Source: a virus | Virus record (IMG/VR): IMGVR_UViG_3300038701_001077 | Span: 1-38,308 of that record | Reading direction: 5' to 3' (one strand) | Length of the DNA: 38,308 bases | In this document: piece after piece, positions 28,425-38,269 of the stretch | How positions within the stretch are numbered: the first letter of the stretch is position 1 | Layout of the letters: each line of letters opens with the position of its first letter | The notes under the pieces: generated by a model | Databases searched by the model: none | What the model saw: only the letters and a program-made list of their open reading frames with translations | Told to the model about the DNA's origin: nothing | Program-made: the position numbers and the translations under genes

Positions 28425-28937
28425 TCATTTTGTTTCCCCGACAAGTGCTGGAAAATTCGGCCTTGCAAACGCTCCATGCAACGCAACTGCCATTTTATCA
28501 TATTCTCGGGCTGCTTCTGCATGGCACAAAAACACACCGCTGCGATGCGATTTGCCATCTTTTCTGCAAGCAGCTCTCCACTTGTCGTGGTGCTTTTCAA
28601 CGCCAAGAAAAGGTGATTGCGCGCCGTTTTTCTTTTTCCTGTTTGCCATGTTTTGCGCATGGCTAGCTTCGCGCAGATTTTGTATCCTATTGTCTAAAGG
28701 ATCGCCATTAATGTGGTCTATAAGCTCGACAGGCCATCGCCCATAAAAAATTGCAAACGCAATCCGATGCGCCATGTAGTGCCGCCCATAAACTCTTACG
28801 CGAACTCCATGCTTTCCTTTGTTCCCCGCTTCACCAAAGCTTCTTTTCCCGGTGGCAACCTTCCAAAACAACTTCCCTGATACAGGGTCGTAATTAAAAA
28901 GTCTGGCGGCCTCTTTTGGGCTAATTGAATGTTTCAC
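28425..28937 (-). CDS. HNH endonuclease with AP2 DNA-binding domain
   Basis: 170 aa from GTG 28937. N-terminal 'AARLFNYDPVSGKLFWKVAT' and 'HYMAHRIAFAIFYGRWPVEL' lead into the HNH core 'IDHINGDPLDNRIQNLREAS'. An AP2-type domain follows ('SPFLGVEKHHDKWRAACRKD', ending 'AAREYDKMAVALHGAFARPN'). These are free-standing homing-type endonucleases of phages. The DNA is clearly AT-richer than its neighbours and sits just behind a strong terminator, both signs of recent insertion by a selfish element. It could favour spread of its own locus during mixed infection. Confidence 0.85.
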   Translation of the reverse strand: MKHSISPKEAARLFNYDPVSGKLFWKVATGKRSFGEAGNKGKHGVRVRVYGRHYMAHRIAFAIFYGRWPVELIDHINGDPLDNRIQNLREASHAQNMANRKKKNGAQSPFLGVEKHHDKWRAACRKDGKSHRSGVFLCHAEAAREYDKMAVALHGAFARPNFPALVGETK

Positions 28938-29119
28938 ATCAGACCCTTTGCAAAAAAGCCCCCGATGCGGAGGAGAGCGCACCGGGGGAGTTTACGACGG
29001 CGAACAGGTGAAACCGTCGAGGCAGGGAGAGTCGCCGGGGTCACATGGGCAACCGCCCCGGCATCGGTTGGGAGGAGGCACATGAAGCCTCGCCCGTGTG
29101 ATTTGGTGGGGGCGGTCAT
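28934..29119 (-). CDS. Doubtful 61-aa frame across the terminator
   Basis: ATG 29119 overlaps the stop of the HTH gene (ATGA) and the TGA overlaps the GTG of the HNH gene (GTGA), a spacing like real genes here. But the frame runs through the terminator hairpin, the residues ('GFMCLLPTDAGAVAHVTPAT', 'RRRKLPRCALLRIGG') match nothing I know, and its end is likely chance. Listed so that the 178-base gap is accounted for. Confidence 0.25.
   Translation of the reverse strand: MTAPTKSHGRGFMCLLPTDAGAVAHVTPATLPASTVSPVRRRKLPRCALLRIGGFFAKGLM
28952..28988 (-). terminator. Strong rho-independent terminator behind cro-like operon
   Basis: On the minus strand CCCCCGGTGCG pairs with CGCATCGGGGG: 11 continuous pairs with one G-U, an 8-base loop, and CTTTTTTGC immediately after. 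It stops leftward transcription after the Cro-like and HTH genes, in the position of lambda tR1. Expression of everything further left must pass it or start beyond it. Confidence 0.82.
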
Positions 29120-29430
29120 GCCGCCTCCGTCAAGTATTCGCAGGCACCGGGGATCGACGCCATTAGATAGGACGCGGCCCAGCCTTGCGGAGCGTTGACC
29201 CCGTTGAGCCATTGGCGGGCAGTCTTCTCGTCCACGTCGAAAAACGCCGCGACCTCGATGCTGTTGCGGAAATGGCCAGCCAGAAACGATGCCCAACGAT
29301 CTGGATAGACCCGGCGGAAGGCGCGGGGATCGCAGGGGCGACCGGACAAAAGCCCGGACAATCCCCCGGACGACAGCGCGCCGTGCGGTGTGCCATGGTC
29401 TGACTGTGAGGTTTGGCGCGGTTTTGTCAT
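29116..29430 (-). CDS. Small HTH-like phage protein after cro
   Basis: 104 aa. The ATG shares its A with the stop of the cro-like gene (TGATG). Residues 1-35 are polar and likely disordered. Residues ~36-90 ('RRVYPDRWASFLAGHFRNSI', 'EVAAFFDVDEKTARQWLNGV', 'NAPQGWAASYLM') look like a HTH domain frequent in small prophage proteins of Rhodobacteraceae. It is the second gene of the leftward early transcript, the place of lambda cII, and is followed by the terminator. A regulator of lysis-lysogeny is a guess from position. Confidence 0.62.
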   Translation of the reverse strand: MTKPRQTSQSDHGTPHGALSSGGLSGLLSGRPCDPRAFRRVYPDRWASFLAGHFRNSIEVAAFFDVDEKTARQWLNGVNAPQGWAASYLMASIPGACEYLTEAA

Positions 29431-29642
29431 CACGCAGCGTCCCCACCTGACAGCGCTTCAATGGCGCGCAACCGTTCGCGCACCTTCTCCGCTGTCTCAG
29501 GCCAGACGCGGCACCCGCTCCGAAGACGAGTATAAAATTTCCCGCCTTGTCCGGCGCGTTCGCCTACCGTGCTTGGCGACATTCCGACGCGGGCCGCTGT
29601 GGCCTCGATGTCGTCAGCGAGTTTTTGTGCTTCGGTGATCAT
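29430..29642 (-). CDS. Cro-like regulator
   Basis: 70 aa from ATG 29642. HTH: 'LADDIEATAARVGMSPSTVG' and 'ERAGQGGKFYTRLRSGCRVW', then a short helix 'ETAEKVRERLRAIEAL'. It is divergent from the XRE repressor gene across an 88-base control region. No Shine-Dalgarno precedes the ATG, and the promoter candidate would start RNA at or next to it, so the message may be leaderless. Upstream in-frame TTG and GTG codons lie inside the operator and are unlikely starts. Predicted role: binding to the same operators to favour lytic growth. Confidence 0.68.
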   Translation of the reverse strand: MITEAQKLADDIEATAARVGMSPSTVGERAGQGGKFYTRLRSGCRVWPETAEKVRERLRAIEALSGGDAA

Positions 29643-29649
29643 GAAGGCA

Positions 29650-29678
29650 ACGCTAGTGTGATAAATCACACATTGCAA
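29650..29678 (-). promoter_or_regulatory. Leftward early promoter candidate (PR-like)
   Basis: On the minus strand: TTGCAA (29678-29673), a 17-base spacer fully occupied by the operator, then TAGCGT (29655-29650). The -35 matches TTGACA at 4 of 6, the -10 matches TATAAT at 3 of 6. The start of RNA would fall near 29643, next to the cro-like ATG. Weak by consensus, but its layout mirrors the rightward promoter. Confidence 0.5.
29656..29671. promoter_or_regulatory. Operator 1 (left), GTGTGATAAATCACAC
   Basis: Perfect 6-bp arms GTGTGA/TCACAC with a TAAA centre. Matches operator 2 at 30172 except for two central bases. Lies in the spacer of the leftward promoter candidate, where a bound repressor would block RNA polymerase. 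Confidence 0.8.
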
Positions 29679-29697
29679 GGGGATATTTCACATTCGC
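29679..29697. promoter_or_regulatory. Secondary operator half-site with shared 10-mer
   Basis: Contains TCACATTCGC (29688-29697), found again in the same orientation at 30154-30163. With GGGGA nine bases upstream of TCACA it forms a degenerate copy of the operator, centred 22 bp from operator 1, about two helix turns. Likely an auxiliary repressor or Cro site. Confidence 0.5.
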
Positions 29698-29699
29698 AA

Positions 29700-29713
29700 C
29701 AGCCTTCGGGCTG
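29700..29713 (+). other. UUCG-tetraloop hairpin before repressor gene
   Basis: CAGCC-TTCG-GGCTG makes a 5-bp stem with a C(UUCG)G tetraloop, an unusually stable RNA hairpin, 17 bases upstream of the repressor ATG. If transcription starts upstream it would sit in the leader and may limit ribosome access or stabilise the mRNA; otherwise it may be a DNA feature of the promoter. Confidence 0.5.
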
Positions 29714-29730
29714 CGATAAATAGGTAAACT

Positions 29731-30054
29731 ATGGATGAAGACGAAAATCTGCGCCGAAATCTTCAGCGAATGATGGCTGAAAACGGCTGGAACGCCGCCG
29801 CGCTTTCTTTGGCTGCTGGGCTAAACCGTCGGGCGATCAAGGACATCCTGGAAGGTCGAGCCGCGAGCCCGAAACTGTCGACCGTGTTTAAGATTGCCGC
29901 CGCCCTGCCATGCGATCCGTGCGAACTAATGGGGCTTGGGGCTCGTGTTTCCTTGGCCCCTGCGCTTCTGCGTCTTCTTGAGCAATACGACGAAGTCGAG
30001 CAAGAACAACTTGCACAGGCACTGGCCGCCCTTCCGCGTCACCCCCGGACATAG
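29731..30054 (+). CDS. XRE-family phage repressor (CI-like)
   Basis: 107 aa. HTH at ~8-62: 'LQRMMAENGWNAAALSLAAG', 'LNRRAIKDILEGRAASPKLS', 'TVFKIAAALPCDPCELM'. The C-terminal 35 residues ('LLRLLEQYDEVEQEQLAQAL') are one helix, probably for dimerisation. There is no S24/LexA-type peptidase domain, so it should not self-cleave when RecA is activated. It lies between the two operators, divergent from the cro-like gene, and is transcribed toward the recombination operon. Shine-Dalgarno is weak (AGG). Probable maintenance repressor of lysogeny. Confidence 0.75.
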   Translation: MDEDENLRRNLQRMMAENGWNAAALSLAAGLNRRAIKDILEGRAASPKLSTVFKIAAALPCDPCELMGLGARVSLAPALLRLLEQYDEVEQEQLAQALAALPRHPRT

Positions 30055-30097
30055 CCAAAATACCAGCCAGAATCTGATAGTCGCTCAATCGGTTAAT

Positions 30098-30119
30098 GCT
30101 ATCCATAACTTAGGATAGC
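30098..30119. repeat. Perfect inverted repeat of unknown role
   Basis: Arms GCTATCC and GGATAGC (7 bp, perfect) with the 8-base centre ATAACTTA, in the gap between repressor stop and the rightward promoter. No U-tract on either side, so it is not a typical terminator. Its arms differ from the GTGTGA operators, so it may bind another regulator. Confidence 0.6.
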
Positions 30120-30142
30120 CAAAATCTACTTTCGTGATAAAG

Positions 30143-30163
30143 TGTGAAGTTTCTCACATTCGC
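30143..30163. promoter_or_regulatory. Upstream auxiliary operator on rightward side
   Basis: TGTGA (30143-30147) faces TCACA (30154-30158) with six bases between, followed by TTCGC; the 10-mer TCACATTCGC repeats the one at 29688. It lies just upstream of the -35 of the rightward promoter, about 29 bp from operator 2. Confidence 0.55.
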
Positions 30164-30165
30164 CC

Positions 30166-30194
30166 TTGACTGTGTGATCTATCACACCCATTCT
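30166..30194 (+). promoter_or_regulatory. Rightward early promoter (PL-like)
   Basis: TTGACT (30166-30171), 5 of 6 to the -35 consensus, a 17-base spacer, then CATTCT (30189-30194), 3 of 6 to the -10. Operator 2 occupies the spacer exactly. It should drive the rightward operon beginning at 30250, giving a ~50-base leader. Confidence 0.62.
30172..30187. promoter_or_regulatory. Operator 2 (right), GTGTGATCTATCACAC
   Basis: Perfect 6-bp arms GTGTGA/TCACAC with a TCTA centre, near-identical to operator 1. Occupancy by the repressor would silence the rightward early operon. Confidence 0.8.
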
Positions 30195-30249: not shown

Positions 30250-30603
30250 TTGACCCACACACCCACACTGGACGAACTCGCGCAGGAATATGCGACCGAC
30301 TTTGCCGACTGCATCGATCGTTACATCAACCGCGCGCATCCCGGAGATGCCACCCGCTGGCCCGGATCGGCACAGCGCGAGACAGCCCACCGCCTGCGCT
30401 GCGCCATCGCGGCAAAGCTGATCGGACCGCACAACGAACAACTGCGCGACCTGATCGACGCCTATCGCAATGCCGACGATGACGTGACCCGCCACATCAG
30501 GGGCATGGGCATCGACCCGACCGACGCGATTGAGGCGTTCGAATCCCAAGCCGAGAACGTTGTCGCATGGCTGCGCGACCAGCTTGAGGAGGCCGCGGCA
30601 TGA
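30250..30603 (+). CDS. First gene of rightward early operon, unknown
   Basis: 117 aa, starting at TTG 30250 with GGGAG seven bases upstream. The sequence is helical and acidic ('LDELAQEYATDFADCIDRYI', 'AHRLRCAIAAKLIGPHNEQL', 'ESQAENVVAWLRDQLEEAAA'). It lies first under the operator-controlled promoter, where lambda has N, but lacks the Arg-rich N-terminus of N-type antiterminators. The non-ATG start may keep expression low. Family not recognised. Confidence 0.68.
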   Translation: MTHTPTLDELAQEYATDFADCIDRYINRAHPGDATRWPGSAQRETAHRLRCAIAAKLIGPHNEQLRDLIDAYRNADDDVTRHIRGMGIDPTDAIEAFESQAENVVAWLRDQLEEAAA

Positions 30604-31260: not shown

Positions 31261-31448
31261 CCGCCGCCGACAAACTGCGCGCCATTGCCGCCGATCCCCA
31301 CGCCGCCGTCATTCGGCAGCCCACCGCACGGGAAACAATCGAGGCCAGGATTGGCAAGAAACTCCCGCCGACCGCAGACCTTCCGCCCGATCTGAGAGAG
31401 GCAATCAAGCTGCTGGCCATCCAGCGAATAAGGAACCGACAGACATGA
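31257..31448 (+). CDS. 63-aa hypothetical protein
   Basis: ATGA overlap with both the preceding gene and the erf gene. Sequence is basic and Ala-rich ('ADKLRAIAADPHAAVIRQPT', 'EARIGKKLPPTADLPPDLRE'). No recognised domain. Probably a small partner in the recombination operon. Confidence 0.55.
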   Translation: MTAADKLRAIAADPHAAVIRQPTARETIEARIGKKLPPTADLPPDLREAIKLLAIQRIRNRQT

Positions 31449-32263
31449 CAAACGCAGTCGAAATCTCACACGGCAATGTCGTGGACGCGCAACAGACGCG
31501 CGACACGCTTCCAGCCGATCCCATGGTCAACATGATCGAACGGGTCGTTATGAACCCCGACGCCGATCTCGACAAGCTGGAACGCATGTTGGCGATGAAG
31601 GAGCGCATGGACGCGCAGAACGCCCGGATCGCCTTTTCCCGCGCCTTGGCGGAAGCCCGCGCCGAGATCCCGCCGATCATCAAGGACGCGACCGTTGACT
31701 TCACCAGTAGCAAGGGCCGCACTCACTACCGGCACGAGACGCTGGCAGGCATCGCCAAGGCTATCGACCCGATCTTGTCGCGCTATGGCCTGTCCTATCG
31801 GTTTCGCACCGATCAGGGACAAGGAGGCGTTCGCGTGACCTGCATCGTTCAGCACTCTTTGGGCCACTTTGAGGAAACCACCCTTTCCGGTTCGGCTGAC
31901 CAGTCGGGGAACAAGAACGGGTTTCAGGCCGTGGGCAGCGCGGTCACCTACTTGCAGCGCTACACGCTCAAGGCCGCGCTTGGCCTGTCTGCCGAGGTTG
32001 ACGACGACGCGCAGGCCGCTTCCCCGCGATTGGAACCTCAGCGCCAATCCCGCGCCCCGGATGGCCCGCCGCCCGAGGCCATCGCCGCCGCCGCTGACAG
32101 CCTTCTCAGCGCTGAAAGCATCGAACAGCTTCGTGCCATCTGGTCCGAACTGCCCCGCGATGTGCAGGGCGTGGCGAAGGTCACGCAAGCCAAGGACACC
32201 CGCAAGATGCAACTCGACACCGCGCCCGCCGATGACCTTGGCGGGGACGAAATCCCTTACTAG
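31445..32263 (+). CDS. erf: ERF-family single-strand annealing recombinase
   Basis: 272 aa from ATG 31445. The ERF domain is at ~45-190: 'LAMKERMDAQNARIAFSRAL', 'PIIKDATVDFTSSKGRTHYR', 'GIAKAIDPILSRYGLSYRFR' and the hallmark 'GFQAVGSAVTYLQRYTLKAA'. The C-terminal part is Pro/Ala-rich, then helical. ERF proteins anneal complementary strands and circularise or recombine phage genomes (P22 Erf). No partner exonuclease is recognisable in the window. The ATG overlaps the previous stop (ATGA). Confidence 0.88.
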   Translation: MTNAVEISHGNVVDAQQTRDTLPADPMVNMIERVVMNPDADLDKLERMLAMKERMDAQNARIAFSRALAEARAEIPPIIKDATVDFTSSKGRTHYRHETLAGIAKAIDPILSRYGLSYRFRTDQGQGGVRVTCIVQHSLGHFEETTLSGSADQSGNKNGFQAVGSAVTYLQRYTLKAALGLSAEVDDDAQAASPRLEPQRQSRAPDGPPPEAIAAAADSLLSAESIEQLRAIWSELPRDVQGVAKVTQAKDTRKMQLDTAPADDLGGDEIPY

Positions 32264-33261: not shown

Positions 33262-33957
33262 ATGCACGATGGAACGCCCCCCGCAGGCCACAACAACCCG
33301 CCAGACCCGATCGACGAAATCACCGCCGCCTATGATGACCAGCGGTCAGAGGCCGAGAACTGGTTAGACGGTGAACCCGTCGAGAACGAAGGCCAGATGA
33401 AAGCCGTGGACGAACTGCGCAAGGCGATGCGGCAATTCCGGCTGGATCTCGAACGCGGGCAGAAATCCGCGACCGCGCCTCTGCACGACGCATACAAGGC
33501 AGAACTTGCCCGGTGGAAGCCGACCATTGAGGACGCCAAGCGGATCGAGAGCGCGTTGGTCGCCACGGTCGACGCCTTCAAGCGCAAGCTGGCAGAACAG
33601 AAGCGCGCCGCTGAAAAGGCCGCATGGGAAGCCGCGAACAAGGCACGTCCCGAAGCCGAGGAAAAGGCCCGCGCCGCCGCCGCGTCCGATCTGGAAGCGC
33701 AGCGCGAGGCCGAGGCCGCAAAGCAGGCTGCCATCGAGGCCGAGAAAGCCGCCCAGGCTGCGAAGAAGGATCAGGTGAAGGGACTGCGCAAGGTCACCCG
33801 GTATGAGATCGATGATTACCGGGCCTTCCTTCACTGGATCGCGAAGAACGACAAGGACGCAATCACCGCGTTCTTGGATGACTACGCCCGGAAGGAACAC
33901 AAGGCCGTAGCCAACGCCGATGGGCTGCGCGTGTGGATCGAGCAGGAGGCGTATTGA
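33262..33957 (+). CDS. Coiled-coil phage protein of the recombination operon
   Basis: 231 aa; AGGAG precedes ATG 33262. Pro-rich N-terminus ('GTPPAGHNNPPDPI'), long Ala/Lys/Glu coiled coil (~100-175: 'KLAEQKRAAEKAAWEAANKA', 'AKQAAIEAEKAAQAAKK'), and a compact C-terminal domain ending 'VANADGLRVWIEQEAY'. Proteins of this layout are common next to phage recombinases. It may act as a structural or annealing partner. Its stop overlaps the ninB ATG. Confidence 0.65.
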   Translation: MHDGTPPAGHNNPPDPIDEITAAYDDQRSEAENWLDGEPVENEGQMKAVDELRKAMRQFRLDLERGQKSATAPLHDAYKAELARWKPTIEDAKRIESALVATVDAFKRKLAEQKRAAEKAAWEAANKARPEAEEKARAAAASDLEAQREAEAAKQAAIEAEKAAQAAKKDQVKGLRKVTRYEIDDYRAFLHWIAKNDKDAITAFLDDYARKEHKAVANADGLRVWIEQEAY

Positions 33958-34355
33958 TGGCTCAGACCATCATCCTGCACGGCCCTAATCAGCGCGCACT
34001 GGCCCGCCGACTGGTGAACGATGCCCCCGCCGGGTGTGTCGTCACCATCTCCAAGCCCAAGCGGACGCTCGACCAGAACTCCCGCATGTGGGCCATGTTG
34101 TCCGACATATCCCGCGCCTGCCCGGAAGGGCGCCATCACCCGCCGGAAACGTGGAAGTCTCTGTTCATGCACGCCGCCGGGTTCGAGGTCGCGTTCCAGA
34201 TGGGATTGAACGGCGAACCGTTCCCCGTGGGCTGGCGCACATCGAAGCTGACCAAGGGCCAGATGGCCGACCTGATCACGCACATGATGGCCTATGGCGA
34301 CGAACATGGCGTTGCGTGGTCCGAACCTCACCCCGACGAAAGGGCAAGCGCATGA
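33957..34355 (+). CDS. ninB: NinB-family recombination protein
   Basis: 132 aa, usual length. Blocks 'VVTISKPKRTLDQNSRMWAM', 'HHPPETWKSLFMHAAG' and 'RTSKLTKGQMADLITHMMAY' are typical of NinB (Orf of lambda), a DNA-binding recombination mediator that helps load annealing or RecA-type proteins on SSB-coated DNA. It starts on the stop of the coiled-coil gene (TGATG) and its end overlaps the HNH gene. Its nearness to erf fits a recombination module. Confidence 0.85.
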   Translation: MAQTIILHGPNQRALARRLVNDAPAGCVVTISKPKRTLDQNSRMWAMLSDISRACPEGRHHPPETWKSLFMHAAGFEVAFQMGLNGEPFPVGWRTSKLTKGQMADLITHMMAYGDEHGVAWSEPHPDERASA

Positions 34356-34705
34356 GCCGCCGCCGCGAATTTTCCGCCAAGGTCAAGGTCGCCGCATTCG
34401 AGCGGGCTGCCAACCATTGCGAGGAATGCACCGCCGTCTTGTCCGTGGGCCGGTTCCACTATGACCACATAATCCCGGATGCACTTGGCGGGGAACCGAC
34501 GCTCGAAAACTGCGCCGTCCTTTGCCACGCCTGCCACGGCGCGAAAACCGCCAAGAAGGACGTGCCCCAGATCGCCAAGGCCAAGCGCGTAGCCCGGAAG
34601 CACACCGGCGCGCACCGGCCCAAATCCACCATCCCCGGCAGCAAGGGCCATTGGCTCAAACGCAAGCTGGACGGAACGACCGTAAGGAGAAACGACGATG
34701 CCTGA
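34352..34705 (+). CDS. HNH endonuclease-like protein
   Basis: 117 aa from ATG 34352 (ATGA overlap). Zinc-type HNH: Cys23-x2-Cys26, His39 in 'FHYDHIIPDALGG', Asn53 in 'TLENC', Cys58-x2-Cys61. A basic C-terminal tail ('KAKRVARKHTGAHRPKST') would bind DNA. In lambdoid phages small HNH or NinG-type proteins stand next to NinB and process recombination intermediates; this one likely does the same. It is unlike the AT-rich HNH/AP2 gene at 28.4 kb and has normal GC, so it is a resident gene. Confidence 0.82.
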   Translation: MSRRREFSAKVKVAAFERAANHCEECTAVLSVGRFHYDHIIPDALGGEPTLENCAVLCHACHGAKTAKKDVPQIAKAKRVARKHTGAHRPKSTIPGSKGHWLKRKLDGTTVRRNDDA

Positions 34706-36804: not shown

Positions 36805-37083
36805 ATGACCCGCCGCGCGCCTCTTGAGCCTGACCGCACGTTCGATCCAGCCAGCGCCTTCGGGTCGTCACTGTGGGCCGCAACGCGCCTCGGGATGACG
36901 CGCGACAGTTTCTACAGGAAGAAGCCCCGACTCTTGCGCAGAGGCTTCCCCAAGCCCAACGAAATCACCGGGCACTACATCAAGGCCGATGTTGATCGCT
37001 GGATCGAACAGCAAGAAACCGTGCCGGCCCGTGATACGATCGAGACTTCCGAATCACAGGGAGTGAACTTCGATGCGATTTAA
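36805..37083 (+). CDS. AlpA/Xis-like excisionase
   Basis: 92 aa from ATG 36805, two bases after the previous stop. Winged-helix type DNA-binding region: 'FGSSLWAATRLGMTRDSFYR', 'GFPKPNEITGHYIKADVDRW'. The pattern ('LGM(T)...F.R..P....GFP.P...G..Y...D...WI') is typical of AlpA-type regulators and small excisionases. The last 11 bases overlap the integrase start, as in xis-int pairs. It should bend attachment-site DNA for excision or regulate int. Confidence 0.72.
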   Translation: MTRRAPLEPDRTFDPASAFGSSLWAATRLGMTRDSFYRKKPRLLRRGFPKPNEITGHYIKADVDRWIEQQETVPARDTIETSESQGVNFDAI

Positions 37084-38269
37084 GGATGACCTTTGGACCG
37101 AGGATGACCCGCTCTACGCACCGGGCAAGGTGCCGAGCCGAGACAACTTCTACTGGACCGCGCCGCGCAAATATCAGCGTATGGGCTATGAACCTGCCCG
37201 CATCCGCCTGACCGGCAAGGAAGGCGACGGCAAAGACCTGATCCGCGCCAAGGAATGCCGGGAACACACAAAGCAGATGCTCCATCATTTCGGCGTCGAT
37301 AACCCGTTCGGGCTGGACACGAGCATCGGCACATGGGGCTGGCTGATCCGCAAATGGAAGTCGGATCCCCACGCGCGCTACTGCAAGGTCAAGGCGAACA
37401 CCCGCGCGATGTATGATCACTTTCTCGACCGATGGGATCAGATCATCGGCAAGGCCCAGATCAGCGCAATGACCTACGTTCTCGCGTCCGACATTCTGGC
37501 CGCGATGAAGGACAAGGGCCGATCGCAGGACAACATGGCCCGCATGTTCGCCATGCTGCGCACCCTCGCCCGCTACGGCAAGGCCATCGGCGTAACCGGC
37601 GCGGACAAGGCAGAGGCGGCAATCGGGCAGTTCCGGTTCGACGGATCGCCCGCCCGCACCGCAGCTCCGACACGCGACCAGATCGAGGCCATCATCGCAG
37701 AGGCGCAGAGACGCGATCTGACGGGCTTCGCAACCGGCCTGCTGTTCCAGTGGACATATGCCCTCAGAGCCGTTGACGTGCGCGGACAATGGCTGTCAGA
37801 CCCCCATGGAGCGGGCGGCATCGCTCGGAACGGCAAGCGGTGGCAGGACGGCCTTACGTGGGACATGATTGCACCCGACATGCAGTCCTTCGCCAAGGTG
37901 ATCAGCAAGACGAAGCGGTCCATGCCGGAACCCGCCGTCTATCCGATCACGCCGAAGATCCGCGAGGCGCTGTTGCAGACGCCAGCCGATCGCAGGACTG
38001 GCCCCATCATCCTGAACACCCACGGTGAACCCTATACCCGCGACGGATGGCATATCGCATGGCGCCGGCTGCGTGACGCGCTCGATCTGCCGAAGGAGTT
38101 GCAGGTTCGCGACGTGCGGGCAGGTGCGATCACCGAGGCCAAGCGCCTGGGCGCAGACCCGACCTTGCTACGTGATGCGGCAGGACATGCCAGCATCGAC
38201 ATGACCACCCGCTATGCCCGTGATAGGGCAGACGGAGCGGCGAACGTGATCAAGCTGAGGAACGTGTGA
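37073..38269 (+). CDS. int: Tyrosine-type phage integrase
   Basis: 398 aa, normal length. The arm- and core-binding part spans ~1-200 (SAM-like helices around 'YDHFLDRWDQIIGKAQISAM'). Catalytic domain: Arg232 in 'WTYALRAVDV', Lys279/281 in 'VISKTKRSMP', Arg349 in 'LQVRDVRAGAITEA', His372 in 'AAGHASIDMTTRY', and nucleophile Tyr381. The usual His of the H-x-x-R box is Arg346. Site-specific integration and excision of the prophage. attP is not visible in the window and may lie beyond the right edge. Confidence 0.9.
   Translation: MRFKDDLWTEDDPLYAPGKVPSRDNFYWTAPRKYQRMGYEPARIRLTGKEGDGKDLIRAKECREHTKQMLHHFGVDNPFGLDTSIGTWGWLIRKWKSDPHARYCKVKANTRAMYDHFLDRWDQIIGKAQISAMTYVLASDILAAMKDKGRSQDNMARMFAMLRTLARYGKAIGVTGADKAEAAIGQFRFDGSPARTAAPTRDQIEAIIAEAQRRDLTGFATGLLFQWTYALRAVDVRGQWLSDPHGAGGIARNGKRWQDGLTWDMIAPDMQSFAKVISKTKRSMPEPAVYPITPKIREALLQTPADRRTGPIILNTHGEPYTRDGWHIAWRRLRDALDLPKELQVRDVRAGAITEAKRLGADPTLLRDAAGHASIDMTTRYARDRADGAANVIKLRNV

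Follow-up and report, generated by a model that had tools for sequence, protein, structure and literature searches.

A putative lambda-type repressor-Cro immunity region with two operator pairs and an unmodelled Cro-like protein family

The layout and logic of the immunity region described here are known from lambda, and the linear plasmid prophages N15, phiKO2 and PY54 are closer in detail. The immB regions of these three phages have 16-bp palindromic operators and a two-site OL pair (PMC4997575); their operator motif is TA-N10-TA, and they carry three OR sites (one in PY54). The phiKO2 repressor binds five sites and its Cro only OR3 (PMC4997575), and Cro of PY54, like that of phiKO2, binds only one site of the similar region (PMC4997575, PMC4488713). 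The phiKO2 and N15 repressors are without self-cleavage residues (PMC4997575). The Cro protein of lambda is alpha+beta and that of N15 all-alpha, and in PY54 the cI and cro mRNAs are leaderless (PMC4488713).

We analyzed the whole virus record IMGVR_UViG_3300038701_001077 (38,308 bases, hereafter the window). Its gene polarity, int - recombination - OL - repressor - OR - cro - replication - head, is that of lambda; the initial annotation had called the region mirrored, which holds only for the displayed strand. A small HTH gene and a repressor gene diverge from operator-containing promoter candidates, and an identical operator word flanks the repressor gene on both sides, both features of the lambda-type layout. 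Also as in lambda OL/OR, the divergent early promoters carry operators in their spacers, each side has more than one operator, a repressor site abuts the repressor's own promoter, and an HTH repressor and an HTH Cro-like protein putatively share one operator word. In contrast to lambda with its three operators per side, the window has two, no OR3, and a 16-bp GTGTGA-N4-TCACAC word; its repressor has no cleavable peptidase domain, its Cro-like protein is predicted to be all-alpha and has no Pfam match, and the cro ATG lies directly at the predicted start site. The palindromic 16-bp operators and the OL pair resemble those of N15, phiKO2 and PY54, the repressor without a cleavable domain resembles those of phiKO2 and N15, and the predicted all-alpha Cro-like protein resembles N15 Cro in this respect. 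Judged by sites, conservation, spacing and helix-operator covariation, all read from sequence, the immunity region is very probably a CI/Cro switch of the lambda type that uses two pairs of operators.

Operators and promoter candidates of the immunity region

Two 16-bp palindromes, OR1 (GTGTGATAAATCACAC, 29656-29671) and OL1 (GTGTGATCTATCACAC, 30172-30187), match the operator pattern exactly and differ in their two central bases; their positions and letters are as initially annotated. A search of all 38,308 bases for GTGTGA-N4-TCACAC, proposed in the same annotation, returned these two exact copies and no other. A dinucleotide model expects 0.0014 copies per window, and the probability of at least two is about 1e-6. 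One could suppose that the palindromes arose by chance or by duplication of a segment and regulate nothing, as about 14 perfect 6+6 palindromes per window arise randomly in simulation. Nevertheless, in 60 simulated windows no same-armed pair within 1 kb was seen, and position and sequence recur in independent prophages, so that this reading is already refuted by the comparative data and retains practically no probability.

Both palindromes fill 17-bp promoter spacers, as had been claimed and as can be read directly on both sides. The leftward early promoter candidate (PR, minus strand) has the order TTGCAA-(T+operator)-TAGCGT, with the -35 box at 29673-29678 and the -10 box at 29650-29655. The rightward one (PL, plus strand) has the order TTGACT-(operator+C)-CATTCT, with the boxes at 30166-30171 and 30189-30194. 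All four boxes are candidates: neither early promoter reaches the threshold of a consensus promoter scan, and therefore their support comes from conservation in relatives. The CTTG of the PR -35 box (CAAG on the plus strand) and the TTGAC of the PL -35 box are kept there, and the TA of the PR -10 box and its short distance to the ATG recur. The PL -10 candidate is a weak match to the consensus, placed by its 17-bp spacer.

Each side carries a second predicted operator, where the initial annotation had counted one main operator per side. OL2 (GTGTGAAGTTTCTCAC, 30142-30157) has one mismatch, and its center lies 30 bp upstream of that of OL1. The half-degenerate OR2 (AGGGGATATTTCACAT, 29678-29693) is centered 22 bp from OR1; with four mismatches it would be dismissed by score alone, yet it is conserved among relatives as ...GAAACTTCACATTCGC. 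OR2 touches the cro -35 box and abuts TTCGC, the best candidate for a -35 box in front of the repressor gene. Because second sites recur at conserved spacing in the aligned relatives, we assign two operators to each side, with conserved spacings of 30 bp (OL) and 22 bp (OR). At the OR3 position of the window no operator match was found with up to four mismatches, so the lambda arrangement, with three operators on either side and OR3 overlying the repressor promoter, is not seen here.

The putative repressor promoter (PRM, 29693-29722, plus strand) consists of a -35 candidate TTCGCA (29693-29698), an 18-bp spacer and a -10 candidate TAAATA (29717-29722); TTCGC and TA.a are kept among relatives. 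The repressor ATG follows this -10 candidate after 8 nt in the window, and the cro ATG follows its own after 7 nt (7-8 nt in relatives). Given these short distances, the cro and repressor mRNAs are probably leaderless. A hairpin, CAGCC-TTCG-GGCTG at 29700-29713, lies between the -35 and -10 candidates of PRM and is not evident in relatives.

Repressor and Cro-like protein

The repressor (29731-30054, plus strand, 107 aa) has an HTH_26/HTH_3 domain followed by C-terminal helices. Its Pfam scores, 35.7 bits for HTH_26 and 31.6 bits for HTH_3 (cut-offs 22 and 23), identify it as a Cro/C1-type HTH protein. The predicted structure (mean pLDDT 85) has an HTH fold with restriction-modification controller proteins, 434 Cro, SinR, DdrO and P22 c2 as nearest neighbors, and a profile of the repressor family gives matches to 434 Cro and to the 434 repressor. 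As a sole query, the repressor retrieved no relatives among viral contigs or named phages. The S24 peptidase domain of LexA/CI-type self-cleaving repressors is absent from the 107-aa protein; it is present in the repressors of three cousins (L048, L040 and L028), whose operator word is the same as that of the window. By Pfam, none of ten further early-operon proteins contains a peptidase or antirepressor domain.

The Cro-like protein (29430-29642, minus strand, 70 aa) is predicted to be an all-alpha HTH protein of four helices and no strands (pLDDT 82), with the turn and recognition helix GQGGKFYTRLR. A fold search gave only weak matches (HipB, C.Esp1396I). Pfam and NCBIfam contain no family for it at the curated cut-off, and the PHROGs matches are weak only. 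None of nine family members tested matched the Pfam Cro family, and the all-alpha prediction differs from the alpha+beta fold of lambda Cro. With the Cro-like protein and one cousin as queries, no relative was found in named phages at the sensitivity used, and plasmids gave two weak matches. The family has no curated library model and is probably spread over many largely alphaproteobacterial prophages.

Related loci and the helix-operator association

The comparison set comprises about 90 related loci. When viral contigs were scanned for nothing but the DNA pattern (14 specified bases), 59 loci were found. In six of these loci, of which two look like near-copies of one prophage, the repressors share 47-55% and the Cro-like proteins 51-74% identity with those of the window, and more loci encode distant forms. 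In the opposite direction, with protein profiles as the only queries, the repressor profile found loci in Rhodovulum, Palleronia and Paracoccus, a remnant in Alexandriicola, and 12 viral loci; in this repressor family both operator pairs recur. The Cro profile found 80 viral loci, some of which repeat one prophage, so that locus counts are not counts of independent events. Within 160 bp upstream of these 80 Cro genes, the best operator match had no mismatch in 16 cases and one in nine (25/80 with 0-1); background windows never had fewer than two mismatches, and exactly two in only 0.3%.

OR1 is found at the same place with 0-2 mismatches in all 12 aligned loci (window included), and also in the out-of-sample genome locus L178. 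Aligned on OR1 and read in the repressor direction, the 12 loci give the consensus TA-gTGTGATnnnTCACAC-nTnGCAA-nnn-GAAACTTCACATTCGC-(about 15)-gcgnTAna-...-ATG. The alignment on OL1 gives an operator-like second site followed by TTGAC-operator, the center of the second site being 29-32 bp upstream. The chance of a site with at most three mismatches at the six chosen offsets is about 0.002 per locus (12 fixed positions, equal base frequencies).

Some loci vary this arrangement. L088 (3971) and L092 (3970) have one further operator that overlies the repressor promoter, 42 bp away from OR1 and in an OR3-like position. In four loci with a DRH-type Cro (L044, L062, L040 and L048), the operators on the cro side are at 0, (23) and 59-60 bp, and the opposite side has a pair spaced 32-33 bp; two of these loci, L040 and L048, have S24 repressors.

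The operator arms vary together with the recognition helix of the Cro-like protein. In the palindromes found upstream of Cro homologues (arms of 6 bp), the arm reads GTGTGN for the helix classes GQGG and DRH (GTGTGA in the window), GTTGG for DKP/DKS, GTAGGG for DPH, GCGGG for DWK, GCACGC for NGRL, TTTGCA for DTA and ATCCGC for NSEL. Among 70 non-redundant loci, operators differ on average in 2.3 of 12 arm positions between pairs with at most two helix differences and in 6.8 between pairs with at least six. The Mantel correlation between Cro helix and operator arms is 0.33, and 0.25 as a partial correlation given the rest of the Cro protein (0 of 5,000 permutations as high), with absolute values that depend on the automatic rule for picking palindromes, which favors repeated sites near cro. 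The rest of the Cro protein also carries some operator signal.

As a test, we then ran the Cro profile on genomes from the order of Paracoccus onubensis to obtain new loci, with the helix classes set before these were retrieved. The new loci were classed by homology search; looking for one fixed motif, WPET, overlooked the majority. The predicted arms were found in six of seven new Cro loci, with 0-1 mismatch to their own class and at least two to every other class: L178/L189 (GQGG), L185, L186 (NSEL), L188, L190, L191 (NGRL). No predicted operator arms were found in the seventh, L192. Exceptions to the rule are the DRH locus L143, which has GTGGGA instead of GTGTGA, and two further DRH loci (L106 and L123), in which the palindrome picked was unexpected.

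The repressor helix tracks the operator as well (partial p 0.003). The arm is GTGTGA with the helices NRRAVTDI or GETAIRDI, GTTGGA with SKTLVKDL, GTAGGG with TTGKPLWDI, GCGGG with GKPDLIRDI and GCACGC with PNYVQQ. Since the helix and the remaining HTH of the repressor predict the operator about equally well, this association does not separate descent from specificity. The covariation supports, at the level of sequence comparison, the reading of shared operators by Cro, and it is compatible with the repressor reading them.

The arms TGTGA...TCACA resemble CRP half-sites, and the palindromes might be sites of a host CRP/FNR-type regulator, the phage exploiting host signalling. In CRP sites 6 bases separate TGTGA from TCACA, whereas there are 4 here; moreover, a host factor would not explain why a change in the Cro helix of the phage goes along with a change in the arms. 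On both counts we reject this explanation as highly improbable.

It is reasonably likely that a simple code applies, in which the first two or three recognition-helix residues of the unmodelled Cro-like family fix the 6-bp arm, in many largely alphaproteobacterial prophages, and in which the operator word is kept while the repressor is either of the cleavable S24 type or of the short peptidase-less type. Hall, LeFevre and Cordes reportedly found in 2005 that Cro recognition helices and OR half-sites correlate (cited in PMC4488713). Their study concerned lambdoid Cro proteins; the present one concerns an unmodelled family from mostly uncultivated phages and includes a test on new loci. A precedent for helix-operator correlation is also reported for the LacI family (PMC2978694). 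What this study adds is the unmodelled Cro-like family, its putative helix-operator code, tested on new loci, and the predicted doubling of the operators on each side. If the code is true, the Cro sequence would by itself reveal the immunity group and the operator sites, and operators, superinfection-immunity groups and the likely induction type could be predicted in uncultivated alphaproteobacterial prophages.

Proposed regulation and neighboring genes

The repressor-Cro switch of the initial annotation agrees with the shared operator at the divergent early promoters, the gene content, the layout of relatives and the covariation of operator and Cro helix; its single operators and its mirroring are not retained. 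The remark on two palindromes thereby becomes a testable immunity region with four sites, for which we infer site occupancy by each protein, cooperativity, autoactivation and leaderless starts. Repressor dimers on OR1 and OL1, inside the -35/-10 spacers, would turn off the leftward cro-replication and the rightward recombination operons. OR2 and OL2, roughly two helical turns (22 bp) and three helical turns (30 bp) away, would present the same DNA face, and cooperative binding is probably added. Lambda CI activates PRM from the site abutting the PRM -35 box; autoactivation by the present repressor is likely because OR2 abuts the weak PRM -35 candidate in the same place.

The Cro-like protein would use its own recognition helix to read this operator word and would repress the early promoters in lytic growth, and perhaps also PRM through OR2. 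Without an OR3 in the window, the route that lambda Cro takes to PRM would be closed, and blocking at OR2 would be the simplest alternative. Since Cro of phiKO2 and PY54 binds only one site, the Cro-like protein may not occupy all four. The roles could also be split more strictly, the repressor acting on all operators and the Cro-like protein on one only, with its own promoter unregulated. Such a division is documented for phiKO2 and PY54, whose operators are likewise 16-bp palindromes (PMC4997575, PMC4488713), and the phiKO2 and N15 repressors share the absence of self-cleavage residues (PMC4997575). In those phages, however, the Cro site adjoins the repressor gene, whereas here perfect palindromes sit inside both early promoters and the operator immediately before cro varies with the Cro helix; we consider split roles unlikely and prefer a switch in which both proteins use the shared operators.

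Between the repressor end and OL2 lies an inverted repeat (30098-30119) with a perfect 7-bp stem, GCTATCC-N8-GGATAGC, and a fold z of -3.8. An 8-bp inverted repeat occupies the equivalent interval of L078, and none is present in the other relatives. The repeat was rejected as a conserved terminator or extra element: a stem of at least 7 bp occurs in 2 of 12 loci, compared with 8% of control windows.

The second gene of the cro operon (29116-29433, minus strand, 105 aa) has weak HTH similarity and the position of cII; assignment as cII is unsupported, as it does not align to the similar-looking gene at this place in L021. The right operon (plus strand) begins with a gene for a 117-aa protein of unknown product (30250-30603) and includes an Erf-type single-strand annealing recombinase (31445-32263) and a NinB homologue (33933-34355); a tyrosine integrase is encoded at 37073-38269 on the same strand. 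The phage carries P22-like head genes; it is probably temperate, with a Rhodobacterales host, and probably belongs to the phages of marine-type alphaproteobacteria.

In Alexandriicola marinus, a 351-bp segment (L076, 3954-4304) is 88.6% identical to the repressor gene region of the window (29715-30064). It has a disturbed start and neither operators nor cro nearby, and as a broken orphan it was excluded from the comparison. This apparent orphan remnant of a close relative points to a host range in the Roseobacter group. Each early operon of the window also contains one HNH endonuclease gene (28425-28982 and 34034-34705), the second following the NinB homologue.
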